Assembly: GCF_000807675.2 (NCBI RefSeq)
Contig: NZ_CP019962.1
Coordinates: 3,941,157 to 4,005,156, forward strand
Origin: Eubacterium limosum
Lineage (GTDB): Bacteria > Bacillota > Clostridia > Eubacteriales > Eubacteriaceae
Length of the DNA stretch: 64,000 nt
Direction: 5' to 3'
The notes beneath the pieces are model-generated. The model saw only the letters and a program-made list of their open reading frames with translations, made no database searches and was not told where the DNA came from. Position numbers and translations under genes: made by a program. Positions within the stretch are counted from its first letter, which is position 1. Each line of letters starts with the position of its first letter. This document shows, piece by piece, positions 20,492 to 35,206 of the stretch.

Positions 20492-20625
20492 GATGGGCGC
20501 TCCTTTGGTTTTATTTTGGGTTATTTTTGTTAAGATTTGCGGTAGGTTCAGGGTGTTTTTTGAGTTTTTTAATTTGATGGACAGTGGATGGGCGGGGTTT
20601 TCTAATGTTTTTGGGTTGGGGCTTG

Positions 20626-20681
20626 CAAAAAATAAAAACCGGCAAGCGAAAGGCATATTGCTATGCTTTCGTTTGCCGGTT
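20626..20681 (-). terminator. Terminator of the capsule operon
   Basis: Minus strand: AACCGGCAA and TTGCCGGTT outer arms with a further CGAAAG/CTTTCG inner stem, followed by TTTTTATTTTTT. It lies 28 bp after the flippase stop codon. Confidence 0.85.
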
Positions 20682-20708
20682 GATTGGTATGTGTCCCGGA
20701 AACCATGA

Positions 20709-22154
20709 TTAATTTTTAAAAAACTTAAACTGCTTAAGTATATTTAAAACAACAGGATTCTTTCTTTTGATAAAATATACGAATGTGCAAATCAGATAGA
20801 AAGCGCCACCTGCTATTATTTCAATACATATGGTAAAAATAGATTCTCCAAGTTTAACGCCGATAAACCGGATGATTCCAAACATAGCAATGCCGATGAA
20901 AAGAAAATAAATACTGTTCACAAAATATTTTCCAATCGGCAATTCTTTGCGGACAATAACCGTTTGATAAAGCGCTACAGCGGCCTCGGCAAAAATTGTT
21001 CCAACAACTGCGCCAAATGCTCCGTACTTAGGAATAAGGGTTAAGTTAATGATAAGATTTACAACTGCCCCTAAGAATACAGAAGCAATATATTCCCGAT
21101 CCTGGCATTGTGGAATTAAATACTGGGTTCGGATGACATTGGCCCAGGAAAGAAATAAAATAATTATGGCTAAATAACTAATCAATTCCCCACAAACTCG
21201 AAATGCTTCGCCAAAAAAGATTGGTGCAAAAATTGGTGCAATTCCCGCGATACCAAAGCACAGCGCACAGGCTAAAAGCATCACCATTTCCATAGATAGA
21301 TTCATGTATCGCTGGCTGTTTTTTTTATCTCCCTTTGCTGCAAGATTCGACATTCTTGGCAGCATAACCGTTCCCAACGCTGTGATGATGCCTTGAGGAA
21401 TGTTAATGATTTTTTCAGAATTTTCATAAAATCCCGTTTGTGTCATGCTGCTCATGGCGCCTAGCATAATTTTATCCATGACCTTGTATAAACTAATGGC
21501 AATCACTGGAATAAACAGAACCAAATTGGGTTTAATATGGCTTTTCATTTCCTTCCATTCCGGTTTACTGAAATAGATATAGCGCTTTAAAAATAGCCAC
21601 AAAATCAGATTGCTGAAAAACATTCCCAACGCTAGGATAAGTGTATAAAGCCACAGGTCCTCACTGGACTTTACAAAAATAAAAGTGCAGACCACAGTAA
21701 TAAGTTTGATGATGGCATTTCGAGTAACGGTTAGTTTAAACTGCTCAACACCAAAGAAAAACCAGTTAATGTCAAAAGCATATGCTAAAAGAAATATGGC
21801 TTGAATGGCCGTAATGGTGAAATATGCCGGATTGACAAAGCAAAAGAGATAAATACAATAAAATGCAATAACTAAAACGGCCATCATAAACTGCGTTGCA
21901 TAAATATTCCAAAATGTTTTACTTAGCTTTTCAGGATCGTCCCGAACCATTGCGATGCTACGGTTACCATAGTTATTAAGCCCTAAAATAATAAACATGG
22001 AAAAATAAAAAGCAATAGAATAAGTGAAGGAATAAATCCCAATCCCTTCTGCGCCGATGACCCGCGCAATGTATGGCGCAGTCATCAAAGGTAAAATCAT
22101 GATTAAAATTTGGTAGGCTGAATTATATGCAAAATTCTTTTTTACACTGCTCAT
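20709..22154 (-). CDS. Polysaccharide repeat-unit flippase (Wzx/PST family)
   Basis: 481 residues, about fourteen membrane segments. The N-terminal NFAYNSAYQILIMILPLMTAPYIARVIGAEGIGIYSFTYS region is diagnostic of Wzx/RfbX flippases. It should move lipid-linked repeat units across the cytoplasmic membrane. It is the last gene of the capsule operon and follows the Wzy-like and glycosyltransferase genes, consistent with a Wzx/Wzy-dependent pathway. GC content is intermediate, higher than in the genes just upstream of it. Confidence 0.92.
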   Translation of the reverse strand: MSSVKKNFAYNSAYQILIMILPLMTAPYIARVIGAEGIGIYSFTYSIAFYFSMFIILGLNNYGNRSIAMVRDDPEKLSKTFWNIYATQFMMAVLVIAFYCIYLFCFVNPAYFTITAIQAIFLLAYAFDINWFFFGVEQFKLTVTRNAIIKLITVVCTFIFVKSSEDLWLYTLILALGMFFSNLILWLFLKRYIYFSKPEWKEMKSHIKPNLVLFIPVIAISLYKVMDKIMLGAMSSMTQTGFYENSEKIINIPQGIITALGTVMLPRMSNLAAKGDKKNSQRYMNLSMEMVMLLACALCFGIAGIAPIFAPIFFGEAFRVCGELISYLAIIILFLSWANVIRTQYLIPQCQDREYIASVFLGAVVNLIINLTLIPKYGAFGAVVGTIFAEAAVALYQTVIVRKELPIGKYFVNSIYFLFIGIAMFGIIRFIGVKLGESIFTICIEIIAGGAFYLICTFVYFIKRKNPVVLNILKQFKFFKN

Positions 22155-22202
22155 ATATCTATTTTCCCTACAGAAAACAAATCCGCATATTTACTTTTCA
22201 TG

Positions 22203-23078
22203 TTAAATTATCCCTTTTCTTTTATATATTGGTATGATTATACAAAATTTTGCCATTAAAAATTTTAAAAATAAAGATTTATCAAATTTAATTTTTAGTG
22301 CTTTTCTATACTCATTCGCAGGATTTTCAAAGCAAGCAAGCTTATAATTCCCTAAATATACATACCAGTTCTTCCTTGCACTATGATTAATAGACAACCC
22401 CTCTTTATTCTTCTCCCATAATATTTTTATAGCCTGAACTCCCTTTTCAGGACTATTACTAATACTATCCATTTGAAGATACATATTCACTAATGGAATA
22501 TTTATATGTAAAACCGGATATTTCTTAGATAATTGTAGCACTATATCCCAGTCCTGCAATCTAGGAAGTCTCGAATCAAATTGTATTTTAGAAAAACACT
22601 CTTTTTTTGCAACCATACATTGAGTGCTCACAACAGATTTTTGAAGTAAAAAATCATAATCTAAAAAACCTTCCTTACAATTAACTGGGATAACTCTAGT
22701 ACAATTTTTACCTATTCTGTACTCATTCATATTTGAAAACGATATTACCGCTTTTTTCTTTTTCATTAATTCTATTTGTATTTCCAACTTATTTTCATGC
22801 CAGACATCGTCACTATCTTGAAAAGCAATATAGCTTCCTCTTGAAGCATTAATTCCAACATTCCTAGCAACACAAGCCCCTGAATTTCTATCTAACTTTA
22901 TATATTTTAATCGTTTATCCAAAATATTTTTAACGACTTTCTCCGTATTATCAAAAGAACAATCATCTATCACGATGACTTCTAATTCCTTGTAGGTTTG
23001 ATTCAATACGCTTTCTATAGATCTTTTTATCAACTTTTGTCTATTATATGTGGGGATAATTACAGAAACTAATTCCAT
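22203..23078 (-). CDS. Family 2 glycosyltransferase
   Basis: About 291 residues from the ATG at 23078, which has better spacing from AGAGG than the GTG at 23087. The GT-A fold signature VSVIIPTYNRQKLIKRSIES opens the protein. VIDDCSFDNTE and FQDSDDVWHENKLEIQ (the metal-binding DXD region) lie near residues 40-95. It adds one sugar of the repeat unit on the cytoplasmic face. Very AT-rich codon use (many AAA, ATA, TTA) sets it apart from the flanking operon genes, suggesting recent exchange. Confidence 0.9.
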   Translation of the reverse strand: MELVSVIIPTYNRQKLIKRSIESVLNQTYKELEVIVIDDCSFDNTEKVVKNILDKRLKYIKLDRNSGACVARNVGINASRGSYIAFQDSDDVWHENKLEIQIELMKKKKAVISFSNMNEYRIGKNCTRVIPVNCKEGFLDYDFLLQKSVVSTQCMVAKKECFSKIQFDSRLPRLQDWDIVLQLSKKYPVLHINIPLVNMYLQMDSISNSPEKGVQAIKILWEKNKEGLSINHSARKNWYVYLGNYKLACFENPANEYRKALKIKFDKSLFLKFLMAKFCIIIPIYKRKGII

Positions 23079-23099
23079 ATTTTTCACCTCTTCTCTTAC

Positions 23100-24233
23100 T
23101 CAAAAAAATATTCTGTATGGAAAAATCTTATCATTTAACCAAACATAATAACTCATATAAAAATAGTACATATAATAGGCAATAGAGTATAAAGCAATTA
23201 CAGTTTTCTTACGTTTCTGGCTATACTTAACAATTTGCGGAACAAGTACAACCTCAGAGATAAAACAATAATAGATCAATCTCATTGCCCAGTGCATATA
23301 AAAACTCATGATGAGTGCCGTAAACTCCAAAATATACATAAATATGTATATTCTATTTTCTTCTCTTACTATAATTAGTCTACGTATATTTAATACAATC
23401 AAGATAAAAATCGGTATACGAAATAGTAGATTCCCAAAGCTAATATCCATCACAAACATGTTTGAATAGTCATTTGCATAACTTGAAAAGAACTTAAATG
23501 AGGAAATCACATTAAAAAAATATTCAAATCCTAATGGAAGCATCAATACAAAAATTATAGTAAAAACATCTCTAACTGAATATGTCGATTCTTTCTTATA
23601 ATACAGAAAATATATTGGTAGACAAAACAATGCACTACTATGAAACGTTGTCGCAATGCAAATTAAAAGCAAGTATTTCAACAGACACCGTGTTTCAACA
23701 TATCTAAGACTTACAAAAACTATCATAACAGCAATAATTTGTCTTATAATGTTCAATGAAGGCCCCCAATATAAGACAAACATAATAAACGTCATTAATC
23801 CAACACTTGCAAATTGTGAATAATATTTTATCCCTTTAGTTCCCAGCAAATATATCAAAAATGCACTTAAAAATAAAACACCATGATATTCGTTGAATAT
23901 TATAAATGCAATTTTGCATAGATAGAAAAAACCAATTTCCATACTTAATGAATGTACATCATGAAAGTTTGACACGTTAATATAGGTATTATATATTAAT
24001 TCATAAGTATTATAGTCAGAGCCCACTTTATATCTAATTCCCGATACAATCGCCGGGATCAAAATCATAATCAATGTAATCGCAAAATTAGTTACACGCA
24101 AATGAGGTTCTCTTTTTTCAAAATATATGCTATTCAAGACATCTTTATTTCCATTATTTTTTTTTTCTAAAAACAATCCCAACAGCAATTCTGCAAAAAA
24201 GATAGATGTATAAATAATCAATGATTGAATCAT
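23100..24233 (-). CDS. EpsG/Wzy-like polysaccharide polymerase
   Basis: 377 residues with about ten or more membrane helices. SGIRYKVGSDYNTYELIYN (residues 64-82) is the signature loop of EpsG-family proteins, which polymerise repeat units outside the membrane. The ATG follows AGGAGACAG. It belongs to the AT-rich variable block. Which linkage it makes cannot be inferred. Confidence 0.85.
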   Translation of the reverse strand: MIQSLIIYTSIFFAELLLGLFLEKKNNGNKDVLNSIYFEKREPHLRVTNFAITLIMILIPAIVSGIRYKVGSDYNTYELIYNTYINVSNFHDVHSLSMEIGFFYLCKIAFIIFNEYHGVLFLSAFLIYLLGTKGIKYYSQFASVGLMTFIMFVLYWGPSLNIIRQIIAVMIVFVSLRYVETRCLLKYLLLICIATTFHSSALFCLPIYFLYYKKESTYSVRDVFTIIFVLMLPLGFEYFFNVISSFKFFSSYANDYSNMFVMDISFGNLLFRIPIFILIVLNIRRLIIVREENRIYIFMYILEFTALIMSFYMHWAMRLIYYCFISEVVLVPQIVKYSQKRKKTVIALYSIAYYMYYFYMSYYVWLNDKIFPYRIFF

Positions 24234-24266
24234 TCTGTCTCCTATCTATTATAACTATAACGATTA

Positions 24267-25169
24267 TCAAAATAGACCCAATAGCACCGTTAATCTAAAT
24301 ATAATATCTATTCTAAAATTTGGTGAATAAATTTTTTTACTAAATAAAAGTCTAAATCTCGCACGAGTACTCATTTTATAGTCAACAACAAGTCGACACA
24401 GTTCAATATTTTCAGTGGACATATACTGCTCATACCCCGATAGCAATTCTTCGACTGCACGACTTCTTGGACATTTTTCCTTTTTTATAGTACCGTATCT
24501 TCTTTTCCATTTTTTAATCAGTGACGCCTTCCCACCTATCACATTATTTCCATGCTGCCGATATTTTATATACGAATTTTTATCATAATACAAATTCCCA
24601 TCCAAAGCCAAACAGACTTTATGCAACCACCCGTCATGCATTATTTGATATTTTGGCTTGTAAATTTTTATCATTTCTAACAATTTACGATTAAAACACA
24701 TCGTACATCCTGTAGCATTACTACTAACCACTGCTTCTTCAAAACTAGTGAAAATTTTATCATTAGATGCCATTGAAATATAGTTTAATTCAGCATCCGC
24801 TAATATTGTATTGCTATAATACATAGCCGGCTCATCTTCATTCATATTTTTTAATGCACTAATTGATATACTTAATTTTTCTGGTAACCAATAATCATCT
24901 TGATCACTAAAAGCATAATATTTTGCATCCGGTGCATTATATATCAAATCCATAAAACTCTTTGCCGGTTTGATATTTTGACCAGAATACCATTCTAATT
25001 TCCCGTTCTCCTGATATTTCTGAAGTATCTTTATTGTATTATCAGACGACCCATCATCTCTTACCAATAAACAAATATCTACATTCTTTTGGCAAAGAAT
25101 ACTATCTATTTGCTGCGATAAATACTTTTCGCCATTATATGTAGACATAAGCACTACTACTTTATCCAT
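24267..25169 (-). CDS. Family 2 glycosyltransferase (rhamnosyltransferase-like)
   Basis: 300 residues. VVLMSTYNGEKYLSQQIDSI, VRDDGSSDNTIKIL and FSDQDDYWLPEKL are the standard GT2 elements of the branch that includes rhamnosyl- and related transferases. The ATG lacks a strong ribosome-binding site, and a 200-bp gap with no gene lies upstream. It is AT-rich like its neighbours. The sugar specificity is unknown. Confidence 0.88.
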   Translation of the reverse strand: MDKVVVLMSTYNGEKYLSQQIDSILCQKNVDICLLVRDDGSSDNTIKILQKYQENGKLEWYSGQNIKPAKSFMDLIYNAPDAKYYAFSDQDDYWLPEKLSISISALKNMNEDEPAMYYSNTILADAELNYISMASNDKIFTSFEEAVVSSNATGCTMCFNRKLLEMIKIYKPKYQIMHDGWLHKVCLALDGNLYYDKNSYIKYRQHGNNVIGGKASLIKKWKRRYGTIKKEKCPRSRAVEELLSGYEQYMSTENIELCRLVVDYKMSTRARFRLLFSKKIYSPNFRIDIIFRLTVLLGLF

Positions 25170-25375
25170 TTTTTATCCATTCTATAAAAGTTAATTTTTA
25201 TATAATTATAACTATTTTCTTCAATTACAATGTTTATCTTGCTAAAATTTTATTTTTTAGAGAGTCTTTCTGGAAAACCCCTATATATGCAAAAATAACT
25301 ACTAATACTTTTTTATTTATCATTATATATCTCTTGTTACATTATCGTTATTGCATAAATTATGTTTTTATTAAG

Positions 25376-26287
25376 TTAATTAGTATCTATTAATTTTTTA
25401 GGCAATTTAAATTCTTTTCCCAAAATAAAATCGAATTCGTCTGGATCAAACTGCACATAACCACTCCATGGATAAAAAGTTAGTTCTCCAAAATATATCT
25501 TTCCTTTACAATTATACAAATCGACTCTAACATACGGAAATTCTTCAGATAATTTGCTTGCTATTTCTAGCATCTTTTCGAAATTTTTTGGTTTTTCCAG
25601 TACTCTGTCCGCGGAAGGACAATCGCTTTTAACAGCTATATTATTCCATTCTGTGTCATAAAAATTCCTCTTGTGTCCTACATATCTATCAACATCCACA
25701 ATTATATATTTGGGGTTCCCTTTATAGCAAAAAATCTTATAATCGTTAACTCCAGCTTCAGGGTTTTCTTCATTCACTAATAGTTCTTCCAATATGATAC
25801 CTGGTATAAGGTTATAATAGGCCCATTCTCGTCCTCCTGTCCTTGTTTTAAATATTTGGGGTTTTAATTTCTTATTCAATTCCGTTATATCAAGTTTTTT
25901 TTTATCCTTACAAATAACTACATTTAATCCACCGCCACCATTTGTCGTTTTAATTACAAATTGATTTGGTAATCTTTCCCACTCTACCTGATCAATAGAA
26001 TCGTATTTTGCAATTAATTTTACCAGTATATTATCTAGTCCTTTGCTTTTTACATATTCTCGTACTTTATATTTATCTACACATTGATGCATAATTGAAT
26101 TTTTATAATTAAGCTTATACCACTGCAATTTTTCTGTATATCGCTTAGGATCTTCTAAATTTAAACTTCTTCCCGTTTTAATTTTGTACTGAAACTTTAA
26201 CATAAGTTTATCTGGAACAAAACGCAATGCATTCAAAATAATTGCTCTTGCTTCAGGTGTCTTTATAATTTTTTTATAATCCATCAT
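25376..26287 (-). CDS. TupA-like ATP-grasp protein
   Basis: 303 residues. DKYKVREYVKSKGLDNILVKLI, FVIKTTNGGGGLNVVICKDK and YVRVDLYNCKGKIYFGELTFYP match the ATP-grasp family named after the teichuronic-acid protein TupA. Members are common in capsule and teichuronic loci and are thought to ligate an amino acid or other carboxylate to the glycan. This fits an operon that makes uronic-acid precursors. The ATG follows GGAGATTAG. It is strongly AT-rich. Confidence 0.85.
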   Translation of the reverse strand: MMDYKKIIKTPEARAIILNALRFVPDKLMLKFQYKIKTGRSLNLEDPKRYTEKLQWYKLNYKNSIMHQCVDKYKVREYVKSKGLDNILVKLIAKYDSIDQVEWERLPNQFVIKTTNGGGGLNVVICKDKKKLDITELNKKLKPQIFKTRTGGREWAYYNLIPGIILEELLVNEENPEAGVNDYKIFCYKGNPKYIIVDVDRYVGHKRNFYDTEWNNIAVKSDCPSADRVLEKPKNFEKMLEIASKLSEEFPYVRVDLYNCKGKIYFGELTFYPWSGYVQFDPDEFDFILGKEFKLPKKLIDTN

Positions 26288-26361
26288 CTAATCTCCGAAA
26301 TATATTTTCCACCACTATTTTTTGCGAACATTTAATCGCATTTACCAGTGGTCTTTTATGC

Positions 26362-27339
26362 TTAAGTCAACAAACTATCGCTATACCAGTCAACAAATTT
26401 AATCGCACCTTCCTTCAATCCTATCGACGGTTTAAATCCAATATCCTCCACCAACTCCTTCACATCCGCAAACGTCTGATAAACATCCCCCGGCTGCATC
26501 GGATAAAATTCCTTAACAGCTTTCTTCCCAATGCACTCTTCCAGAATTTCAATAAAATCCATCAGCTTTTCCGGATGGTTATTTCCGATGTTGTAGACCT
26601 TGTGTTGCACGTTGTTTTCGTCCTCTTTTGGAGCAAAGGTTAAAAGCCTGAAGATTCCCTCAACGATATCGTCGATATAGGTGAAATCCCGGTACATCTC
26701 TCCATTGTTAAAAACCTTGATGGGCTCTCCCTTGAGGATCTTCTCTGTAAAGGAATAGTAGGCCATGTCTGGCCGGCCATAAGGGCCGTAGACGGTGAAG
26801 AATCTTAAGCCGGTTGATGGGATGCTGTACAGCTTGCTGTAGGCATAGGCCAGAAGTTCATTGCTCTTTTTGGTGGCCGCATAAAGGCTGACGGGCTGAT
26901 CGGTTTTATCTTCGGTTGAGAAGGGCACTTTTTTATTAGCGCCGTAAACGGAGCTTGAGGATGCGTAGATTAAATGTTTTGGTTTGTGGTAGCGGCAGGC
27001 TTCCAAAATATTGAAAAATCCAATGATGTTGGATTCAATATAGGCCTCTGGATTTTTGATGCTGTAGCGCACGCCTGCCTGTGCCGCCAAATTTACGACA
27101 ATTTCATGTTGATATTGTTCAAAAATACGGTCTATGGCTTCTTTGTCTGCCAGATCGCCTTTGATAAAAATAAAATTGCTGTATTCTTTTAAAATGTTCA
27201 AACGGCTCTCTTTTAAGCGGACATCGTAGTAAGGGTTCATATTGTCAAACCCAATGACTTTTTTCCCTTCGTCCAACAGCCTTTTTGACAGATGAAATCC
27301 GATGAAGCCAGCTGCTCCGGTAACAAGGATATTTTCCAT
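26362..27339 (-). CDS. UDP-glucuronate 4-epimerase-type SDR
   Basis: 325 residues, extended SDR. The NAD-binding ENILVTGAAGFIGFHLSKRL motif, the catalytic SLYAATKKSNE (YxxxK) and the TGLRFFTVYGPYGRPDMA signature are those of UDP-GlcA 4-epimerases (CapI/LpsL type). With the adjacent UDP-glucose dehydrogenase it would produce UDP-galacturonate for the capsule. It marks the boundary where GC content returns to the genome norm. Confidence 0.9.
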   Translation of the reverse strand: MENILVTGAAGFIGFHLSKRLLDEGKKVIGFDNMNPYYDVRLKESRLNILKEYSNFIFIKGDLADKEAIDRIFEQYQHEIVVNLAAQAGVRYSIKNPEAYIESNIIGFFNILEACRYHKPKHLIYASSSSVYGANKKVPFSTEDKTDQPVSLYAATKKSNELLAYAYSKLYSIPSTGLRFFTVYGPYGRPDMAYYSFTEKILKGEPIKVFNNGEMYRDFTYIDDIVEGIFRLLTFAPKEDENNVQHKVYNIGNNHPEKLMDFIEILEECIGKKAVKEFYPMQPGDVYQTFADVKELVEDIGFKPSIGLKEGAIKFVDWYSDSLLT

Positions 27340-27369
27340 TATTTCTATACTCTCTTTTTTAATGTGTCG

Positions 27370-28695
27370 TTACTTTAAGCTTGGTCTCCCAATGCTGTGG
27401 TATTCAACGCCTGTTTCTTTCATACGCTGCAGGTCATAGATGTTTCTGCCGTCATAGACAAGGGGTGTTTTCATTTTCGCTGTATAAATTTCAGGAGGAA
27501 GTTCTTTTATTTCTGTCCATTCGGTAAAGATAAAGGTAACGCTGGCGTCTTCAAGGGCTTCCTCTGGGGTGGAGACATAGGTGATCGTTCCCTTATCATT
27601 TTTTCCTTCAGGGTATTTTTTCTTAAAATTTTCTTTCCCTACGGGATCGTAGGCAAAAATCTGGGCGCCCTGTTTTAAAAGCAGGGGTATGTTTTCTAAG
27701 GATGGAGCTTCTCTTAGATCATCGGTGCCAGGTTTAAAGGTTAAACCGAGAACAGCGACTTTTAATCCGTTAAAGGTAATCAGGCGTTCACAAGCTTTTT
27801 TAAAGAGCCGCACCTTTTGCGCCTGATTCACATCCACAGCGGCCTCAACGGTTTTCAACTGATAACCATTCTGACGGGCCAGGTATTTGAGGGCCTTGGT
27901 ATCTTTGGGAAAACAGGAACCGCCGTATCCGATGCCGGCATTTAAAAACCGTTGGCCAATTCTTTGGTCATAAGACATACCTTTTGCCACATCTTCAATA
28001 TTTGCGCCGACCCGTTCGCACAGATTGGCAATATCGTTCATATAGGATATTTTGAGTGCCAGGAAGTCATTGCTGGCGTACTTGATCATTTCTGCGCTTC
28101 GTCGGCTGACGGATACGATGGGCAGGTGAAAAGGCTCATAGATTTCTTTCAGTATTTTTTCTGCTTTTTTGCTTTCGGTCCCGATGATAATTCTTGCGGC
28201 CTGCAGCGTATCTCTCACCGCGGTTCCCTGGGCTAAAAACTCGGGATTGCTGGCCACCTCCACGCTAACGTCTTTTTCCAGTGAATCTTTGATAAACTGC
28301 TCAACTTTATCGTTTGTGCCAACCGGCACGGTGGACTTTACAACGACCAGACAGTCATGCTCAATGCTCTCGGCAATCTGCCTGGCAACCATGGCCACAT
28401 AGGTTAAATCGGCGGAACCGTCTGGCTGTTCGGGTGTACCGACGCCGATAAAGATCGCATCGGCTTCACGGTAGGCTTTCTGATAATCGGTGGTGTAGTC
28501 AAGACGTCCGGCTTTGTAATTCTTAACCATCAGGGCTTCTAAATCCTGTTCATAAATCGGGCTTTTTCCAGACTGCATCTGCCGGACCTTATTCTCATCA
28601 ACGTCCACGCAGAGCACCTGATGTCCCACTTCGGCAAAACACACGCCGGCGACTAAGCCGACATAGCCAGTGCCTGCTACTGCGATTTTATACAT
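27370..28695 (-). CDS. ugd: UDP-glucose 6-dehydrogenase
   Basis: 441 residues. It oxidises UDP-glucose to UDP-glucuronate with two NAD+. The Rossmann motif VAGTGYVGLVAGVCFAEVGH opens the protein; GYGGSCFPKDTKAL (about residue 257-270) carries the catalytic cysteine; the C-terminal domain contains VLGLTFKPGTDDLREAPS. The ATG follows AAAGGAG. The next gene downstream is the UDP-GlcA epimerase, giving a two-step route to galacturonic acid. Confidence 0.95.
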   Translation of the reverse strand: MYKIAVAGTGYVGLVAGVCFAEVGHQVLCVDVDENKVRQMQSGKSPIYEQDLEALMVKNYKAGRLDYTTDYQKAYREADAIFIGVGTPEQPDGSADLTYVAMVARQIAESIEHDCLVVVKSTVPVGTNDKVEQFIKDSLEKDVSVEVASNPEFLAQGTAVRDTLQAARIIIGTESKKAEKILKEIYEPFHLPIVSVSRRSAEMIKYASNDFLALKISYMNDIANLCERVGANIEDVAKGMSYDQRIGQRFLNAGIGYGGSCFPKDTKALKYLARQNGYQLKTVEAAVDVNQAQKVRLFKKACERLITFNGLKVAVLGLTFKPGTDDLREAPSLENIPLLLKQGAQIFAYDPVGKENFKKKYPEGKNDKGTITYVSTPEEALEDASVTFIFTEWTEIKELPPEIYTAKMKTPLVYDGRNIYDLQRMKETGVEYHSIGRPSLK

Positions 28696-28728
28696 ATAAA
28701 CTCCTTTTTTGTCTCAAATATTTGATGC

Positions 28729-29838
28729 TTATTTATTTTTATCAATTAAAAACTTTTCAATTTCTTCCATATAAGCGTCAACCACAATCTGGCGGTCAAA
28801 TTCCTGTTCTACTTTTTTGCGGCCGTTTAGTCCCATTTGTACACGCTCTTCATTTGAAAGGGCTAAAAATCTTTCGATGGCCTGAACTAAGCTTTCTGTA
28901 TTCTTTGCCTCAAAAAGAAACCCGGTCTTTCCGTCCTCCATGGTTTCGCCACAGCCGCTCCGGTTGGTGGTGATCACGGGACGTCCGCAAGCTTCGCTTT
29001 CTAACAATACGTTTGACATCCCTTCTGGATAATAGGATGGGTGAATGGTACAATGGGCTCTTTGATGGAATACCCTCACATCGTCTTGAAGTCCGTGATA
29101 TTGAATCACACCGCGCGCTTCATAGGCCTTTAAAATGTCCTCATAGGCTTCCTCACAAAAACCCAGGACGTGAAAACGCGTATGGGGATATTTCTCGCGA
29201 ATGATTTCTGCGGCTTCTAAATATTGATCAATGCCTTTTTCTTTCATTACTCGGGCGATAAATAAAAACTCGATGGTGTCATCGGGCGGGTATGGTAAAA
29301 GGATGAAATGTTTTAGATTGACGCCTGATCCCGGAATGAGGCGATGCTTGTCATTAGCGATTTGACGTTCTGAAAAAAACTGTTTGTTTTCTTTGTTTTG
29401 GAAAAAAACGCAACGTACACTCTGAAAGGCTTTTTTATAAAGTGCCACGGTTATTTTTTGCATGATACCTGGATTTTCAACGGCTGTACCTAATCCGGTG
29501 ATGTTGGCAATGTAAGGAATGCCCAATTTTTGACAGGCCATGCCTCCGTAGATTGTGGGTTTGATGGTGTAGGTTAGAACCGCATCGGGGTTGTACTCTT
29601 GCATAATTTTTTTGTAATTTTGAAGGAGCTTCATATCGGTGACGAGATTTGTGCCGTGGCGGTCAATGGGGGTTTCATAATAAGTACATCCCATTTGGAT
29701 TAATCGATCGACTTTTTTTCCATACGGCAATACGATTGCTACCGCCAACCCTTTTTCTAAAAGTTTTTCAATGATTTCTTTTCGGAAGTTGTAGATGACA
29801 ATATCGTGATTTCCAATAAGCATTATTCTTTTCTTCAT
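28729..29838 (-). CDS. Family 4 glycosyltransferase (GT-B)
   Basis: 369 residues. MLIGNHDIVIYNFRKEIIEKL near the start and SYYPEGMSNVLLESEACGRPVI (E-x7-E motif) near residue 275 define a GT-B retaining transferase. It probably adds the second sugar to the lipid-linked first sugar. It overlaps the upstream SDR gene by four bases (ATGA), so translation is coupled. Confidence 0.92.
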   Translation of the reverse strand: MKKRIMLIGNHDIVIYNFRKEIIEKLLEKGLAVAIVLPYGKKVDRLIQMGCTYYETPIDRHGTNLVTDMKLLQNYKKIMQEYNPDAVLTYTIKPTIYGGMACQKLGIPYIANITGLGTAVENPGIMQKITVALYKKAFQSVRCVFFQNKENKQFFSERQIANDKHRLIPGSGVNLKHFILLPYPPDDTIEFLFIARVMKEKGIDQYLEAAEIIREKYPHTRFHVLGFCEEAYEDILKAYEARGVIQYHGLQDDVRVFHQRAHCTIHPSYYPEGMSNVLLESEACGRPVITTNRSGCGETMEDGKTGFLFEAKNTESLVQAIERFLALSNEERVQMGLNGRKKVEQEFDRQIVVDAYMEEIEKFLIDKNK

Positions 29839-30710
29839 ACTGTCGCTTTACTCTCTGTCTTTATAATCGAATCTTTTACATCACAGATACAATATTTAAA
29901 GTTCTGATAATTGGACATTTCTTTTTCATACACCAGACTTCCAAAAACTTTGTTAATCATGGGCACTTCTTTAAAGCCCCATCGGATCAATCCATTAAAC
30001 ACTTTGGTTAAACGCATTTTCTTTCCATAAACCTCGGCGATGGTTTTGACCAGCTCAGTGGTTTTGACGTATTCCTTATTTTGTGGAAAGAAAATGCCTC
30101 TCGCTTCATTGTCGATCATCAAGCGGATAAATTCGCAGAGATTCTCAATGTAGAGCATACTCCGCTCATTCTCAATGTCTGGGAATACTGGTGTTTTTCT
30201 GGCTAATCTGGCTAGCTTTGGGTAATTCCCTTTGGAGCCTTTGCCGTAGATCATGGGTGGTCTGAGGATCACAACCTTAAAGTGCTCATCCTGAAGGGGC
30301 TGGATGCCCTGTTCGGCCTGCAGCTTGCTGTTGCCGTAGAAGTTGGTCGGTGTGGGGATGGTGTCTTTTGTGATCACGCGCTTTTCACCGAGCTTGCTGC
30401 TGTCGCCATAGACAATGATGCTGCTCATGAAGATGAATTGCTTCACGCCCTCGGCTTTGGCTTTTTTAGCGGCTTCAATGGTCAGATCTCGGTTCACTTG
30501 ATAATACAGATCCTCCATGTTGGCTTTGGCGTCCACATGGGCGATGCCTGCGACGTGAAAGACCACGTCGTAGTCGCTAAAATCATAGGACTGCCAGTCT
30601 TCCTTGGTATCAAGGGTATCGATCGGGTACTCCTCTGGCCACTGACGCACCCACTTCTCAAAGGAGGTGCCAATATAGCTGTCTTTTCCGGTGATTAAAA
30701 TCCGTTTCAT
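29835..30710 (-). CDS. NAD-dependent epimerase/dehydratase family SDR
   Basis: 291 residues. The nucleotide motif is ILITGKDSYIGTSFEKWV, with SYIG replacing the usual GFIG. FMSSIIVYGD and YGNSKLQAE supply the catalytic Ser and YxxxK. The subfamily seen next to initiating sugar transferases modifies a nucleotide sugar or polyprenyl-linked sugar. It overlaps both neighbours (ATGA at each end). Exact reaction unknown. Confidence 0.85.
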   Translation of the reverse strand: MKRILITGKDSYIGTSFEKWVRQWPEEYPIDTLDTKEDWQSYDFSDYDVVFHVAGIAHVDAKANMEDLYYQVNRDLTIEAAKKAKAEGVKQFIFMSSIIVYGDSSKLGEKRVITKDTIPTPTNFYGNSKLQAEQGIQPLQDEHFKVVILRPPMIYGKGSKGNYPKLARLARKTPVFPDIENERSMLYIENLCEFIRLMIDNEARGIFFPQNKEYVKTTELVKTIAEVYGKKMRLTKVFNGLIRWGFKEVPMINKVFGSLVYEKEMSNYQNFKYCICDVKDSIIKTESKATV

Positions 30711-31327
30711 TTCAAGTCCTCCTCAATGCCCATGGCCCCGGTACCGCCTTCCTGTACGCCTTCGTTTTTTAAAACGGAGGTGATGGTTTTAAAGAACATT
30801 TTACAGTCAAAGGGAAAGCTGATGTTTTTTACATATTGTCCATCCAGCTTTGCTTTGATTGGGATTTCCAGTTCATCCCGGCCGCTGATCTGTGCCAGAC
30901 CGGTAAGCCCTGGCCGCACGTCGTTGGCCTTGTACTGGTCTCGTTCTGCAATCAAATCTTCCTGATTCCAGAGTGCCGGGCGTGGTCCGATGATGCTCAT
31001 CTCGCCTTTGATGATGTTAAAAATCTGTGGCAGCTCATCTAAACTTGTTTTCCTTAAAAACTTGCCGACCTTTGTAATGTACTGATCGGGGTTTTTGAGC
31101 ATGTGGGTAGGGGTATCTTTTGGCGTATCGATGGACATGGTCCGGAATTTATAAATATTAAAGTGCTGTTTATGGATTCCAACACGTTTTTGTTTGAAAA
31201 GTATCGGTCCTTTGGAATCGGCTTTGATGGCGATCACAAGGATACCGTACACGGGTGAAAGGATGATCAGTCCAACCGTGGACAGTGTAAAATCCAGTAT
31301 TCGCTTGAGATATTTCTGATAGATCAT
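30707..31327 (-). CDS. Initiating sugar transferase (undecaprenyl-phosphate sugar-1-P transferase)
   Basis: 206 residues, the short form with one N-terminal membrane segment (residues 10-35). KADSKGPILFKQKRVG, FKFRTM-like YKFRTMSID, and KTSLDELPQIFNIIKGEMSIIGPRP are the hallmark motifs of the WcaJ/PglC fold. It loads the first sugar phosphate on undecaprenyl phosphate and so starts capsule synthesis. Its ribosome-binding site AGGAGTG lies inside the coding end of a 27-codon upstream frame. Confidence 0.94.
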   Translation of the reverse strand: MIYQKYLKRILDFTLSTVGLIILSPVYGILVIAIKADSKGPILFKQKRVGIHKQHFNIYKFRTMSIDTPKDTPTHMLKNPDQYITKVGKFLRKTSLDELPQIFNIIKGEMSIIGPRPALWNQEDLIAERDQYKANDVRPGLTGLAQISGRDELEIPIKAKLDGQYVKNISFPFDCKMFFKTITSVLKNEGVQEGGTGAMGIEEDLK

Positions 31328-31328
31328 C

Positions 31329-31412
31329 TTACACTCCTACTTCAAAGCTGTATTCTGGTTCTTCTTCCTCTATGACTTCTTCTGGTTCTTTCAGCTTTTC
31401 TTCTTGTTCCAT
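31329..31412 (-). CDS. Short Glu-rich peptide leading the capsule operon
   Basis: A 27-codon frame starting at an ATG with an AGAGGA site seven bases upstream and ending two bases before the sugar-transferase ATG. Twelve of 27 residues are Glu (EEVIEEEEPEY in the centre), with no Cys, His or aromatic cluster beyond one Tyr and one Phe. The stop region carries the ribosome-binding site of the next gene, so translation of this peptide would affect capsule initiation. It may be a coupling leader or a small acidic partner protein. Confidence 0.55.
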   Translation of the reverse strand: MEQEEKLKEPEEVIEEEEPEYSFEVGV

Positions 31413-31682
31413 ATTGCATCCTCTTTTCGGAACGCTGGGGGTAGCATTCCCTACATTTCATTCAATAATTTAAAACTCGTAGCACTCATGATCAAAACTG
31501 ATCTTTGATCTTTACTTTCATCGCATTGCGTTTGCTTTCTCTATAAGGAAAAAGACAAACACAATGCGATGTGAAATAAAAATAGGTGGTGCTAAACCTG
31601 TACTTCTGGCCTTATAGACGAAAAGCACACCTATAAATTTCTTCACAGGATTTAATTATAATTAGCTCAACCACTATGTTTA
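31413..31682. other. Structured spacer between the TnpB-like gene and the capsule operon
   Basis: 270 bp with no gene. It holds a hairpin over the TnpB-like stop codon (31679-31702), a TATAAT-like element on the minus strand near 31655, a long hairpin (31519-31571), a GATCAAA/TTTGATC inverted repeat near 31490-31512 and a small GTAGGGAATGCTAC hairpin near 31440. It must contain the capsule promoter or leader and could contain a guide RNA for the TnpB-like protein. None of these roles is proven. Confidence 0.5.
31519..31571. repeat. Long near-perfect hairpin in the capsule leader
   Basis: Arms CATCGCATTGCGTTTG (31519-31534) and CAAACACAATGCGATG (31556-31571) pair over 16 positions with one wobble, and the CTTT/AAAG bases inside extend the stem. 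No T tract follows on either strand, so it is not an ordinary terminator. It may be an RNA processing, antitermination or guide-RNA structure. Confidence 0.6.
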
Positions 31683-31702
31683 TCAGGCAACACCCTGATA
31701 AA
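31679..31702. repeat. Hairpin over the stop codon of the TnpB-like gene
   Basis: TTTATCAGG and CCTGATAAA form a perfect 9-bp stem with a six-base loop that includes the end of the gene. IS200/IS605 elements carry subterminal hairpins at the right end, and omega RNAs end in this region, so this may mark the relic element end. Confidence 0.55.
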
Positions 31703-33038
31703 ATTTGTAATAAAACCCTTTCCCCAGATTTCTCGCGCTGTTCAGCGCTGTACTCCCCCGGTGCCCTTCTTTACACATGAAGTTCTTCCCACCGTAAAAG
31801 TTTGGGCTGGGGTTCTGGTACTCGGTGTTGTGCTTGGCGATGGGGGCATCGCAGTGGTAGCACCGGGTGCTGGCGTAGTAGGGTTTGCTGGTCATTGCGA
31901 CCAGGCCTTGCTGCCAGGATTTGTACTGGACATAGCGGGCAATGCGCCTTCCGATAAAGTCGTAGAGTGTTTTGCCCAGATAGGGCTTTTTCGCCTGATT
32001 GAAGCTTTCTTTTAGCTCGGGCAGAACGATGAGTTTGGCGCCCTGCTTAATGGCGTAATCGACGATTTTACGGCTTACCTCATGAGCGTAGTGGTCGGTC
32101 AGGCGGGTGATTTTGTCATAATATTTTGCATTGGGGCGGCCTGGTTGATGACCTTGCGGAACGATACCCGCTTCGGCTTGTCCATAAGACGACAAGCCTC
32201 GGGGGCAGACCTCGAGGGCTTCGTTCCCCTCAGGTTGCTTTATAAGCCTGGGGGCCTTGTTCCCAGCAAGGCCGCGTTTGGTATACCCCAGAAGCAGCTT
32301 CCTACGGTGGGCCAGTTCTTTTCCGCCCTTGATGAAATATGGGGCGGTGGCGCGACCGTCTGCTTCGATGGTGGTACAAACCGCGAGACTGTCGGAACCG
32401 GTGAGGGCCACGGCGACAAACTTTTCATTTTGCTGTACACGCTCCTTGGCGGTCCGGCTGTCTTCCACGATCTCCTTGACGGGGATGTGTAGCATGACTT
32501 TTTTCTTCTTAATGACAATGGTCGGGCTCATAAGCTCGGCGTTTTCTGGAAAGGGCCTTCCCGTATAACGGTGCTTGACCCAGGCCCAGGTTTTGCCGGT
32601 GTTGAGCTTAAGCAGTATGCTTTTCTCGTCAAAGTCTTTGTACATGCCCTTGTAGTAGAGCATGGACATATGCAGACACTTTGGCGGTCTGGGCTTTCCG
32701 CTTTTTATCGGGCCTTCCTGCCACGCCTTGAGCTTTCCCACATAGCTTCTATACATGCTGATGGCCGCGTTGATGGCGGCGCGCCGGAAGTACAGGGGGA
32801 TTTTCTCAAAGGGCAGGGGCGTTTCGGGCGGGGTGCCGTCTCGCTGTTTTATTGTCTGCAGCTCTAAATGACGCAGTAAATTCTGATTGGAGAGACTGAG
32901 TGCTTCGGGCTGCTTCTCGAGCAGTTTGTAGTAGAATGCCAGGACAGCGTCAAAGAGAGACTGGGTTTGTTTAAACCAGTCTAAATGCTTGTAATTTAGC
33001 TGTATTTTGTACGTCGTGATGGCGTATCCCGCACTCAT
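31683..33038 (-). CDS. TnpB-like protein with substituted RuvC active site
   Basis: 451 residues from the ATG at 33038, preceded by GGAGG at seven bases (an earlier ATG at 33098 has no site). It belongs to the IS200/IS605 TnpB (OrfB) superfamily: an N-terminal recognition region, RuvC segments, and a C-terminal zinc finger (CYHC ... CKEGH). By my alignment the RuvC-I Asp is Ala (VAVALTG instead of GIDxG), the RuvC-II Glu is Pro (IVLPELK instead of IVxEDL) and the RuvC-III Asp is Ala (STALNSARNLG instead of ADxNAAxNIG). The frame is otherwise intact. No TnpA is present. This resembles nuclease-dead TnpB homologues (TldR) that act as RNA-guided repressors. An alternative arrangement of catalytic residues (Asp in TGSDS, Glu in PELKE) cannot be excluded. 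Confidence 0.8.
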   Translation of the reverse strand: MSAGYAITTYKIQLNYKHLDWFKQTQSLFDAVLAFYYKLLEKQPEALSLSNQNLLRHLELQTIKQRDGTPPETPLPFEKIPLYFRRAAINAAISMYRSYVGKLKAWQEGPIKSGKPRPPKCLHMSMLYYKGMYKDFDEKSILLKLNTGKTWAWVKHRYTGRPFPENAELMSPTIVIKKKKVMLHIPVKEIVEDSRTAKERVQQNEKFVAVALTGSDSLAVCTTIEADGRATAPYFIKGGKELAHRRKLLLGYTKRGLAGNKAPRLIKQPEGNEALEVCPRGLSSYGQAEAGIVPQGHQPGRPNAKYYDKITRLTDHYAHEVSRKIVDYAIKQGAKLIVLPELKESFNQAKKPYLGKTLYDFIGRRIARYVQYKSWQQGLVAMTSKPYYASTRCYHCDAPIAKHNTEYQNPSPNFYGGKNFMCKEGHRGSTALNSARNLGKGFYYKFYQGVA

Positions 33039-33057
33039 TTTGGGGCCTCCGTTTGTT

Positions 33058-33090
33058 CGCAGACTATTCAAGGTCTGCGAGTCTTTTTTT
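33058..33090. repeat. Hairpin repeat, copy 1 (loop TATTCAAG)
   Basis: CGCAGAC, an 8-nt loop TATTCAAG, GTCTGCG, then AGTC and a T run. Compared with copy 2 at 33419-33449, the flanks (TTGTTCG before, CGAGTCTTTTT after) are in the same orientation while the central 22 bp is inverted. It lies directly upstream of the ribosome-binding site of the TnpB-like gene. Confidence 0.65.
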
Positions 33091-33265
33091 AATTTCACTT
33101 TTTTATAATTTAACTGCGATACCTATTATAACATTAGGTAATGAAAAAAGCATCAACTTTTTTAAAAAAATTAAATATTTTTCTTCAAAGTCAATTTATG
33201 TCTATATTTTAACAATAAAAGTGTTTTTCGTCAAATTTTCGTTTCTTATTTATAAAAGACCGATG

Positions 33266-33285
33266 TGGTCAAAACATGGTCAGAG
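33266..33285. repeat. TGGTCA direct repeat, copy 1
   Basis: TGGTCAAAACATGGTCAGAG contains two GGTCA units. A second copy with one inserted base is at 33355-33375, about 90 bp away. Confidence 0.55.
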
Positions 33286-33354
33286 TAAAGCTTGAATATC
33301 TTGATTTTATGCTGTTTTCTTTATGCTTTTATTTTTAAATTCTAAAATCTTCTT

Positions 33355-33375
33355 TGGTCAAAAATATGGTCAGCG
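33355..33375. repeat. TGGTCA direct repeat, copy 2
   Basis: TGGTCAAAAATATGGTCAGC matches copy 1 with a single-base insertion. Four GGTCA units in about 110 bp suggest a protein-binding array. Confidence 0.55.
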
Positions 33376-33418
33376 AAACGGAAAAGCATGTAATTGCTTG
33401 GCCTTTAAATGTATTGTT

Positions 33419-33449
33419 CGTAGACCTTGAATAGTCCACGAGTCTTTTT
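33419..33449. repeat. Hairpin repeat, copy 2 (loop CTTGAATA)
   Basis: CGTAGAC, an 8-nt loop CTTGAATA, GTCCACG, then AGTCTTTTT. The loop is the exact reverse complement of the copy 1 loop, so the two RNAs or strands could pair over about 20 bases. Confidence 0.65.
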
Positions 33450-33530
33450 CTTTTTATAATGAGTATATCTCAACCGTTCCAAGAATTCAGGACCGGGTAC
33501 ACTTTAAAGCTTTCATCAATATTCTTCAAC

Positions 33531-33579
33531 AAAAAAACCTCTCTGCAAAACCGGGATTACCCGGTGCGCAGAGAGGTTT
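33531..33579 (-). terminator. Terminator of the G5/3D gene
   Basis: Minus strand: AAACCTCTCTGC and GCAGAGAGGTTT arms, with an inner ACCGGG/CCCGGT stem, followed by a run of seven T. It lies 11 bp after the stop codon. Confidence 0.9.
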
Positions 33580-33590
33580 ACAATTTCGAT

Positions 33591-34988
33591 TTAATTTAAC
33601 ACATAAGCATCCAGATTCCGGCGTCCAAAGCTGATGGCTTCGGCGTAGCTGTCAAAGAAGATGTCAATGACATTGCCTTTTACAGCGCCGCCACTGTCTT
33701 CTACGGTAAATACAGTGTCAAAATATGGAATATAGATTCTGGTGCCAATGGGATAATTGGTCAGATCGGCTGCGATGGTATGGCCGGATGTGGGCCATGC
33801 GCCGGATGCTGTCGCGTTACCGGTTGCCACATAAGCGGTACAGTTTGCGGTAAAATGGGTCGCATTACTCAGATCAATCCCATTGCTTTCTTCTGCAGGC
33901 TGTTCAGGTTCTGGCTCAGGTGCCGGGGTGGGCTCTGGCGTTGGGGCTGGAGCTGGTTCCGGTGTAGGAGCAGGCTGTTCTGCGGGAGCTTCTGGCTGTG
34001 TGGCTTCGGGTGTGGGTTCAGGCGTCGGGGTTGGCACCGGTTCTGCGGCTTTTGTTCCAACCTCTACGACCTCGGTCACCGGCTCCTTAATGGTTTCCTT
34101 AGAGACGACTGAACGGGCAATTTCCTTGCCATTTTCGTAGGTTACATTTTCGGTGATCCTGGCTGTGCCGTTAACACCGGCGGTTTTTACATTGGTTTTT
34201 CCCTGTTCCAGCTCTGGGTTTTCGACCTTCTGACTGGTAAAGGCAATGGCTTCTTCACGGGTTTCCTGTTTTACTTCGGTGGTTACCTTGCTGCCGACTT
34301 CAATGACTTCGGTCACGGGCTCCAGCACGGTCTGAGTCGACACGGTTTCACGGCTGACCAGAATGCCATCTTCATAGGTTAGCTTATCAGTAATTTTTTT
34401 GCTGCCATTTACGCCTGCGGTTACGATATTCTGTTTTCCATCTTCAAGCTCAGGATTAACACTCTGTTTAACCTCAAAGGGAATGGCCTCCATACGGCTT
34501 TCTTCCTTTTCCTCACGGCGGACGATTTTGATTTCCTTAACCTCTGTGGTCAGGGCGGTATCCGCTGATGGCACCACGACGTCGCTCGCACCCAGAGTAA
34601 TGTTCTGATCCTTTAACAGGTCTCCGACCGTGTCGGCTGTGGAATCATAGGTATGGCCGTTTCCGTCCACGTTTAAGGTTCCCTTGGCGTTCTTTTTAAT
34701 GGTAACATTGTCGACGTCTTTCACCTTGGTATCAAGGGGGACGCTGACAGTGTACTCACTGGTATCGACAGGATAGCCCTTTTGCTTGAGCACTTCGCCG
34801 ATCTGGGACTGACGCTGGCTGGCCAGTGTCTGGGTCTGGACGCTGCCGTTTCCGGTGTTTTCGTCCAGTGATACTTCAATGTTCTTGGTCATTGTAAAGG
34901 CACAGGCAATGCCCATGGCAACGGTCAATACGATTAAGAAAATCATACCGACGATCTTTTTCCAATGACTGCTCATGAATTCACTCAT
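33591..34988 (-). CDS. YabE-like cell-wall protein: DUF348, two G5 domains, 3D domain
   Basis: 465 residues. A signal anchor (residues 12-33) is followed by DUF348-type repeats (about 35-140), two G5 domains (about 150-228 and 229-305, each ending near VTEVxEVG), a Pro/Glu/Ala/Thr-rich wall-spanning linker (about 306-375) and a C-terminal 3D domain. In the 3D domain the conserved Asp residues are visible in IAADLTNYPIGT, VEDSGG and VIDIFF. Such proteins are exported and probably cleave peptidoglycan, by analogy with Rpf/YabE stationary-phase enzymes. It is monocistronic, with its own promoter and terminator. Confidence 0.92.
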   Translation of the reverse strand: MSEFMSSHWKKIVGMIFLIVLTVAMGIACAFTMTKNIEVSLDENTGNGSVQTQTLASQRQSQIGEVLKQKGYPVDTSEYTVSVPLDTKVKDVDNVTIKKNAKGTLNVDGNGHTYDSTADTVGDLLKDQNITLGASDVVVPSADTALTTEVKEIKIVRREEKEESRMEAIPFEVKQSVNPELEDGKQNIVTAGVNGSKKITDKLTYEDGILVSRETVSTQTVLEPVTEVIEVGSKVTTEVKQETREEAIAFTSQKVENPELEQGKTNVKTAGVNGTARITENVTYENGKEIARSVVSKETIKEPVTEVVEVGTKAAEPVPTPTPEPTPEATQPEAPAEQPAPTPEPAPAPTPEPTPAPEPEPEQPAEESNGIDLSNATHFTANCTAYVATGNATASGAWPTSGHTIAADLTNYPIGTRIYIPYFDTVFTVEDSGGAVKGNVIDIFFDSYAEAISFGRRNLDAYVLN

Positions 34989-35075
34989 AAATAATTGCTT
35001 CCTTTCATTTTCTTGTGTTCTTCTTTTGGAAAAACGGTTGAAAGTATAATAGAAAAAATAATAATTTCACTATAA

Positions 35076-35104
35076 ATTTTATCAAAATTCAACTAAAGTG
35101 TCAA
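35076..35104 (-). promoter_or_regulatory. Promoter of the G5/3D gene
   Basis: Minus-strand TTGACA, 17-bp spacer, TAAAAT. The transcript would begin near 35069, about 80 nt before the start codon. No riboswitch-like fold was recognised in this leader. Confidence 0.75.
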
Positions 35105-35180
35105 TAAATCTTAATATTGTAACAATTTCAAAAAATTTGGTCGACTTTGTAAAGATGACCTAAAAAACAGGCAAAATAAG

Positions 35181-35206
35181 AAAAACCACCGAAAACGGTG
35201 GTTTTT
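35181..35206. terminator. Terminator of the V-ATPase operon
   Basis: AAAAACCACCG, a short A-rich loop and CGGTGGTTTTT. Perfect arms and T tract on either strand. It lies 12 bp after the subunit D stop codon. Confidence 0.9.

Follow-up and report, generated by a model that had tools for sequence, protein, structure and literature searches.

A TnpB-like protein without its nuclease residues and a structured RNA at the head of polysaccharide operons with invertible promoters in the Eubacterium limosum group

What does a TnpB-like protein do at the head of a surface-polysaccharide operon once the residues that would make it a nuclease are gone? The question is raised by a gene on the reverse strand of a 64,000-nucleotide (nt) stretch of the Eubacterium limosum chromosome (NZ_CP019962.1, positions 3,941,157 to 4,005,156; hereafter the window), for which an initial annotation had proposed a domesticated, RNA-guided regulator of the capsule operon downstream. 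At the level of sequence the loss of the catalytic residues, a promoter switch that inverts, the structure and conservation of an adjacent RNA and the linkage to polysaccharide operons are all established. We tentatively favour the explanation that the dead TnpB and its own RNA form a nuclease-free DNA-binding regulator resembling the known TldR proteins, with a constant RNA tail as guide, which heads phase-variable polysaccharide operons.

The gene is intact and has its own ribosome-binding site (Table 1), as had been noted. An alternative in-frame GTG start at 33098 would give a protein of 471 amino acids (aa), and the ATG is preferred because the GTG extension crosses an inverted-repeat arm. 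Matches to family models, weak but in agreement with one another, assign the window protein to the TnpB/Cas12f superfamily: NCBIfam guided_TnpB (E 2.2e-18, below the curated cut-off), Pfam Cas12f1-like TNB (E 1.5e-4, under the cut-off) and PADLOC Cas12f (E 3.2e-12). An AlphaFold2 model built from 17 homologues had low confidence (mean predicted local distance difference test, pLDDT, 60; predicted template-modelling score, pTM, 0.47) and is therefore usable for topology only. Its best matches in the Protein Data Bank (PDB) were AsCas12f1, OsCas12f and CnCas12f1, with ISFba1 TnpB at rank 17 (E 3.8e-14 to 4.3e-9, TM-scores only about 0.3-0.4). The family matches and these structural matches agree with the TnpB fold read from the sequence earlier, and the CCCH-type motif, C393/C396/C422/H426, is zinc-finger-like and invariant in 17/17 family members.

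The catalytic columns were read from an alignment of seven of the 17 family members with six related TnpBs from other organisms (a Butyrivibrio plasmid, Allochromatium, Oscillatoria, Pseudomonas, a clostridial genome and a faecal phage record). All six relatives keep D, E and D at the columns where the family has A211, P340 and A431, the same Ala, Pro and Ala that had first been pointed out. A211 and P340 are both found in 17/17 members, and position 431 is A in 15/17, V in locus L041 and I in locus L048. An hmmsearch alignment to AsCas12f1, with the residues that we take to be catalytic in that protein, agrees at RuvC-II and RuvC-III and does not reach RuvC-I. We also considered the two acidic residues that might have served instead. 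The Asp of TGSDS (D216) is invariant in 17/17, yet it stands five residues past the catalytic column, and in the low-confidence AlphaFold2 model it falls between RuvC strands one and two; the Glu of PELKE (position 341) is E in only 9/17 members, D in 2/17 and G, S or A in 6/17. As D/E/D is replaced in the family and kept in the relatives, the loss of the nuclease residues across the family, and hence of the nuclease, appears well supported.

Homologues beside capsule loci, which had been suggested as something to look for, were found in number. The window genome (G000) has five dead-TnpB copies and three other Eubacterium species (G001-G003) have four each, giving 17 in four genomes, each heading polysaccharide genes. 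The module has the same order in 17/17 loci: an inverted-repeat promoter segment, dead tnpB, the structured RNA with its tail, and polysaccharide genes. These data support a fixed association of dead tnpB with such operons. In the window the next large gene on the same strand is the sugar transferase that opens the capsule operon, in agreement with the initial annotation. The representatives scanned at other loci are a DegT aminotransferase and a sugar transferase at L010 and epimerases at L011 and L043. When the open reading frames (ORFs) within the fetched stretches around the loci were clustered by single linkage, the sugar-transferase cluster was present at 15/17 loci, with L042 and L052 carrying the L011-type epimerase instead.

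The family appears to be confined to the genus, within the reach of our searches. A fifth searched genome of the genus, G004 (80% complete), had no copy. In a search of 61 genomes at E 0.001 five had a match, the fifth (G040) a weak one, and among 291 genomes of the class three matched at 1e-10, namely the window genome and two distant relatives. A peptide-pattern scan of 84,980 species' genomes gave four loci, all from E. callanderi FD, whose proteins are identical to the G003 set and were not counted again. None of 37 pattern matches for relatives in viral contigs was confirmed; phages gave a single distant match and plasmids 15 records, each below 60% identity, and a search of plasmids with the module DNA gave no match.

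Could the gene simply be a passive leftover, of IS605 type and dead, that successful capsule operons have taken with them? The loss of the catalytic residues would suit such a history, as would the surroundings of the relatives with intact residues: four of the six adjoin annotated transposase genes, the clostridial relative (L054) adjoins an ORF read by eye as a Y1 transposase, and the phage record has no annotation. Against it speak the ratio of non-synonymous to synonymous substitution (dN/dS), with a median of 0.17 and a maximum of 0.36 over 106 usable pairs of the 136 that the 17 genes form (the remainder being saturated or nearly identical at silent sites), the frames, open in 17/17 genes, and the RNA covariation described below. 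This explanation, already disfavoured, is scarcely credible. No TnpA accompanies the gene, as had been claimed: none of the matches to Y1 transposases (E up to 0.001) that the four genomes contain lies less than 28 kilobases (kb) from any of the 17 loci, and the closest one in the window genome is about 58 kb off and interrupted by stop codons. A fixed chromosomal position, in line with a lost transposon, is further indicated by upstream genes that 15/17 loci have in common with a locus in another species. A scan of the window locus (30700-35200) found no CRISPR-type direct-repeat array.

Nor did we find many recent identical copies, as far as this was tested. The window copy shares 70-94% identity with the other four copies of its genome, all five stand before polysaccharide genes, and the DNA that they share is bounded by the arm and the tail; ends of an insertion sequence (IS) were not searched separately. 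The window copy (L009) and two others of its genome, L010 and L011, are 91-94% identical to each other, and the window copy is only 85-90% identical to the copies at the same position in other species. Exchange between loci is a possible source of this pattern.

The second component of the module is the promoter segment. Upstream of dead tnpB, 17/17 loci have two 24 base pair (bp) arms, inverted and 331-348 bp apart, and the 8-bp core is identical between partner arms in 17/17. The five loci of the window genome have five different cores, and L045 and L048 of G002 share one. The promoter motif is directed towards the gene in three loci (the window copy and, in G002, L046 and L048) and away from it in 13, and is mixed in L052, so that in the window genome the window copy is ON and the other four are OFF. 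The promoter scan is not evidence on its own, because it gave four promoter-like sites versus 3.3 expected in shuffles. The OFF orientation also seems to block read-through, since a T-run at the upstream arm gives a terminator-like hairpin facing the gene in all 13 OFF loci and in none of the three ON loci; the OFF hairpins were read from the sequence, as the terminator scan covered the window only.

Two comparisons indicate that the inversion is real. L046 (ON) and L043 (OFF), from two species, have upstream genes in common, and their 338-bp segments are 49% identical as printed and 100% identical when one is reversed. In the same manner, the segment of the window copy resembles those of L043 and L050, which occupy its chromosomal position in other species, at 88% and 87% only if one of the two is reversed. 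The mixed segment of L052 (E. callanderi FD, G003:C15, 334 bp) differs from that of L013 at 94 aligned positions, 80 of which match the reverse complement when that is aligned separately. If the printed base is the alphabetically later one of the two orientations, 167/167 symmetric pairs obey the rule. When the same bases were shuffled 1000 times the mean was 151 and the maximum 159, and the other 16 segments reached 56-73%. Of the L052 bases, 309/328 are predictable from L013. The simplest reading is that L052 was assembled from a culture with both orientations; a decayed or hypermutated promoter was set aside in view of this base-by-base overlay. Taken from the genome sequences, then, the promoter segment inverts and the operons are phase-variable.

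The window genome has 20 Phage_integrase matches (E up to 1e-10), none of which was singled out as the invertase. The same arm type was seen without dead tnpB as two pairs in G001 and as single arms in G000 and G003 (a reversed-pattern control gave 1-5 sites per genome at up to one mismatch). Among these cases, from G001 and G003, the pair at L058 5001-5382 has as neighbours a tyrosine recombinase of 197 aa and a very large ORF that matches no Pfam model, the pair at L059 5001-5383 precedes a giant SpaA/DUF7601 protein, and the single arm at L060 5001 lies beside another giant protein of the SpaA/DUF7601 type. The recombinase beside the L058 switch was rejected as a common invertase, as it has no homologue at E 0.001 in G000 or G003. 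Fragments of Y1 transposases were found at G001:3409032-3409277 and G003:C15:40728-40925, about 0.7 and 7.6 kb from arms without dead tnpB.

The third component is an RNA of 176-215 nt, present between dead tnpB and the operon in 17/17 loci. It starts 30-62 nt past the stop codon in 16/17 loci and 74 nt past it in L050, where the start was placed by hand. The window RNA folds with -67 kcal/mol (z -9.1). In the alignment of 17 sequences 96.8% of the pair cells are standard and 16/53 pairs have changed on both sides. The covariation score was higher than in all 500 shuffles and all slid controls; the structure was derived from the same alignment, which favours it, and with this tool related sequences may beat shuffles even without structure. 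The nine Rfam matches to the RNA were all far under the gathering scores. An RNA model was run on 11 genomes, with 150 first-look candidates scored per genome (out of 1,117-1,279 in the four species), and in the four species it gave 34 matches: the 17 loci, 16 mirror matches on the long hairpin and one decayed remnant. Weak matches occurred in G037-G039 (E 0.007-0.84). As the matches are the loci, their mirrors and one remnant, the RNA travels with the protein. Except for the decayed copy, no orphan guide RNA was found among the scored candidates of the four genomes, and there is no sign of separate guides encoded elsewhere. The decayed copy (G000:1405735-1405909, L013 9482-9656) lies in the L013 operon with no dead tnpB before it, and precedes a gene reading as UDP-glucose dehydrogenase; it is perhaps a relic of an older module that a new operon has overlaid.

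The structure and covariation support a guide-RNA-like element at the expected place, and kinship to known guide RNAs is suggested by the position and a predicted pseudoknot only. Cas12f RNAs end 3' in a pseudoknot-type structure, and the guide of Cas12f and TnpB begins just past such a loop-tail pairing. In our RNA the loop of the third hairpin may pair with the tail (Table 1); this pairing barely varies, and the pseudoknot is thus predicted, not proven. The tail follows where a guide would be expected. Its last 16 nt, GCTACGAGTTTTAAAT, are invariant in 16/16 columns compared to 61/174 elsewhere, where the longest invariant run is five, and homology between loci with different operons stops right after it. 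In the window genome the 18-mer tail was found at the five loci only (at one of them with one mismatch), together with the decayed copy with three mismatches. Since the RNA sits in the place of a TnpB guide RNA and has the predicted tail pseudoknot, it plausibly carries a short constant guide.

The same RNA allows a more modest role, in which it is the only target: the protein would bind its 3' RNA, stabilise or trim it and so split tnpB from the capsule message, e.g. together with RNase III acting on the long hairpin. In 16/17 loci 13-16 of the 16 pairs of this hairpin are kept, and according to the accessible part of PMC13418256 an Oscillibacter TldR RNA is cut at a stem-loop in an RNase III-dependent way. 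Processing of this kind explains neither the invariant tail downstream of the hairpin nor the selection on the whole protein, and we regard it as quite unlikely. The abrupt end of homology at the tail brings up another role. Since the upstream genes of 15/17 loci recur at a locus of another species and those downstream are often different, as would fit capsule loci that are exchanged, a complex of the protein and its RNA may help recombination at the module end, where different operons meet the same chromosomal position. However, homology is expected to end where function ends, the nuclease residues are absent and ordinary homologous recombination is enough, which makes a role in cassette exchange or in the switch highly unlikely.

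The TldR-like regulator that we favour would go back to a TnpB that was deprived of its nuclease residues and of its transposon and, in the E. limosum group, took up the first position in phase-variable operons for surface polysaccharides. A site-specific recombinase would flip the promoter segment, and in the ON state a single transcript would carry dead tnpB, the guide-RNA-like RNA and the capsule genes. Dead TnpB and RNA would then be produced with the capsule operon ON, and only then unless another promoter exists. The protein would bind its own RNA, and the resulting ribonucleoprotein (RNP) would act as a DNA-binding regulator with the short constant tail as guide. Binding at sibling capsule loci and at its own locus might limit transcription into the capsule genes; these loci are the likeliest targets because the tail's only exact matches are the modules. 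An extended version, which we consider unlikely, is a self-recognising switchboard in which the RNP from the ON locus holds down the leaders of all sibling capsule loci, each having the same guide and the matching DNA. If true, it would be RNA-guided control that targets the very locus family encoding it and coordinates which polysaccharide is made.

Several observations weigh against a guided DNA-binding regulator. Five of the six TnpB relatives share only about 23-27% identity with the window protein and the sixth (L054) was detected by profile only, the predicted pseudoknot has no compensatory changes, and in L052 the long hairpin is largely broken (6/15 pairs). The search for targets was also negative. 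In the four genomes the exact 14-mer TACGAGTTTTAAAT occurs at the 17 loci only. With one mismatch it gave 6 further sites versus 18 for a reversed-pattern control. An 11-mer of the tail gave 5 further sites versus 23 for its control. All 10 distinct further sites were inspected without finding a conserved intergenic target, no target outside the module was found with 11-18-nt patterns or with 9-mers within the loci, and tail 9-mers had no conserved match position in the capsule genes across the 17 loci. Further, TnpB and Cas12f have T-rich target-adjacent motifs; the DNA preceding the tail is not T-rich, which argues against self-targeting.

Some candidate targets were considered and set aside. 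TACGAGTTGTAAAT precedes murA (named from its sequence) in G000 and G002, and this promoter was dropped because the site has a one-base difference in G001 and G003; with the region 96-99% identical throughout, that difference leaves the site without special constraint. TACGAGTTTCAAAT (G000, G001, G003) lies inside a conserved coding gene, and the other five further sites have unlike surroundings in different genomes. Locus-specific guides, taken from the sequence after the tail, matched sibling loci mostly with AT-rich 11-14-mers and a repeated hairpin element, and nothing was convincing. Upstream of the module, AGTTTTAAA falls in a coding gene at L011, L042, L045 and L049 and is intergenic at L043 and L046, each shared site being limited to loci at one chromosomal position. 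The failed search is nevertheless weak evidence, because a 6-nt guide suffices for a known TldR, that of Enterobacter (PMC13418256, accessible part), and a short seed escapes such searches.

As the RNA lies inside the operon leader, a role on the leader RNA, by antitermination or processing, competes with DNA binding. The dead TnpB would here bind the nascent RNA and act in cis as an antiterminator or anti-Rho factor, taking the place that the NusG-like UpxY has elsewhere, and DNA targeting would have been lost. In the accessible text of PMC7315117, UpxY-like proteins, encoded first in capsule operons, keep transcription from ending too early in the untranslated region. The layout is similar in our loci, with dead tnpB as the first gene after an invertible promoter and the RNA in the untranslated gap before the capsule genes. 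All 17 strong RNA matches in the four species lie between dead tnpB and the operon, and the missing DNA target also fits. Less easily accommodated is the RuvC-type fold, which to our knowledge has no link to antitermination, and the RNA has been kept in the position of a TnpB guide RNA with its most conserved stretch where the guide should start. Locus specificity like that of UpxY is unlikely too, because the dead TnpBs of different loci are 63-98% identical. We therefore see a leader factor as a serious but doubtful candidate. For the domesticated RNA-guided repressor initially proposed, the loss of nuclease residues and the capsule linkage are supported, as is the domestication, by purifying selection and the absence of TnpA nearby; guided repression of the capsule operon is a candidate function.

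The features of the locus are listed in Table 1. A peptide similar to that of the small acidic ORF that separates the RNA from the sugar-transferase gene is readable at L046, L049 and L051. The repeated hairpin element (TGTAGGGAACGCTGCC...) lies in the intergenic leader before the first capsule gene at many loci. It also occurs in frame within a length-variable loop of several dead TnpBs (residues ~256-303), and a related protein stretch matches elsewhere in the window genome.

Table 1. Features of the dead tnpB module and its operon in the window, from the operon end to the upstream arm.
Feature	Position	Strand	Basis and remarks
Last operon gene	19484-20656	-	No Pfam match
Rest of polysaccharide operon	19484-30710	-	Epimerases, glycosyltransferases, UDP-glucose dehydrogenase, TupA-like, EpsG, polysaccharide flippase-type
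Bacterial sugar transferase, first large operon gene	30707-31327	-	Pfam Bac_transf E 5e-63
Small acidic ORF, 27 codons, between RNA and first large capsule gene	31329-31412	-	Sequence
Tail GTGCTACGAGTTTTAAAT, candidate constant guide	31468-31485	-	Last 16 nt invariant in 17/17 loci
Conserved structured RNA, 186 nt, guide-RNA-like scaffold and tail	31468-31653	-	z -9.1; covariation; RNA model
Loop UAGCAC of third hairpin, predicted pseudoknot partner of tail GUGCUA	31589-31594	-	99% of cells paired, nearly invariant
Dead tnpB ORF, intact, 451 aa	31683-33038	-	ATG at 33038; TnpB/Cas12f-like, A211/P340/A431 replacing D/E/D
Shine-Dalgarno GGAGG	33046-33050	-	Sequence; GGAGR is the E. limosum consensus reported in PMC5651825 (accessible part)
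Terminator-like hairpin, ON orientation, directed away from gene	33055-33082	+	Promoter/terminator scan
Downstream inverted-repeat arm	33057-33080	.	Forms part of terminator-like hairpin
Invertible promoter segment, 337 bp, ON in this assembly	33081-33417	-	Reversed-only likeness to L043/L050; promoter faces gene
Sigma-70-like promoter TTGACG-N17-TAAAAT	33206-33234	-	10/12 match; TG before second hexamer
Upstream inverted-repeat arm, TCGYRGAC-N8-GTCYRCGA type	33418-33441	.	21/24 identical to 33057-33080, core 8 identical

Each of the elements is already known: regulators of the dead-TnpB kind, inversions upstream of TldR loci, and capsule promoters that invert. Their union, a dead TnpB at the head of 17 polysaccharide operons in one genus, was not found in the literature searched, in which no paper brought guide RNA and TnpB together with capsular polysaccharide (most subscription papers and bioRxiv preprints were outside the search). 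The arrangement points to the recruitment of an RNA-binding protein for control of the cell surface. If this is true, capsule joins flagellin as a surface structure under a domesticated TnpB, and promoter inversion and an RNA-protein regulator are tied in one module with 4-5 copies per genome. Because the tail is constant, the guide hypothesis lends itself to a direct test, and the host is a gut acetogen with a published primary transcriptome (PMC5651825, accessible part).

The module shares features with several known systems. With Cas12f (AsCas12f1, 7wju/8dzj) and IS605 TnpB it has the fold and the C-terminal zinc-finger-like motif in common, and it differs from them in the three replaced catalytic residues, in the lack of TnpA within 28 kb of the 17 loci and in the lack of an array in the scanned part of the window. 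Bacteroides genomes, as described in the accessible part of PMC7315117, likewise have several capsule operons, some with inverting promoters and a regulator gene at the operon start; UpxY prevents termination in its own operon and UpxZ represses the other loci. Here, in contrast, a dead TnpB with a structured RNA behind it opens the operon, in place of a NusG-like antiterminator. The fliC-TldR of Enterobacter prophages (PMC13418256, in the part accessible) is similarly a dead TnpB-type protein beside a surface-structure locus with an adjacent guide-RNA-type element, whereas the neighbours scanned in the window code for polysaccharide functions and a G5/3D-domain protein instead of flagellin. 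The TldRs of Oscillibacter and Flavonifractor, described in the same source, are csrA- and fliC-linked with hin and promoter-region inversions upstream, and one Oscillibacter strain has four TldR loci whose guides predict cross-targeting of fliC homologues. Like these, our module joins a RuvC-dead TnpB-type protein, an RNA 3' of the gene, upstream inversions, several loci per genome and a link to a surface structure. As far as that source goes, it is set apart by polysaccharide operons in the place of flagellin, by inverted repeats with an 8-bp core that varies among the five loci of the window genome, and by a constant tail where the others have recognised guides to homologous genes.
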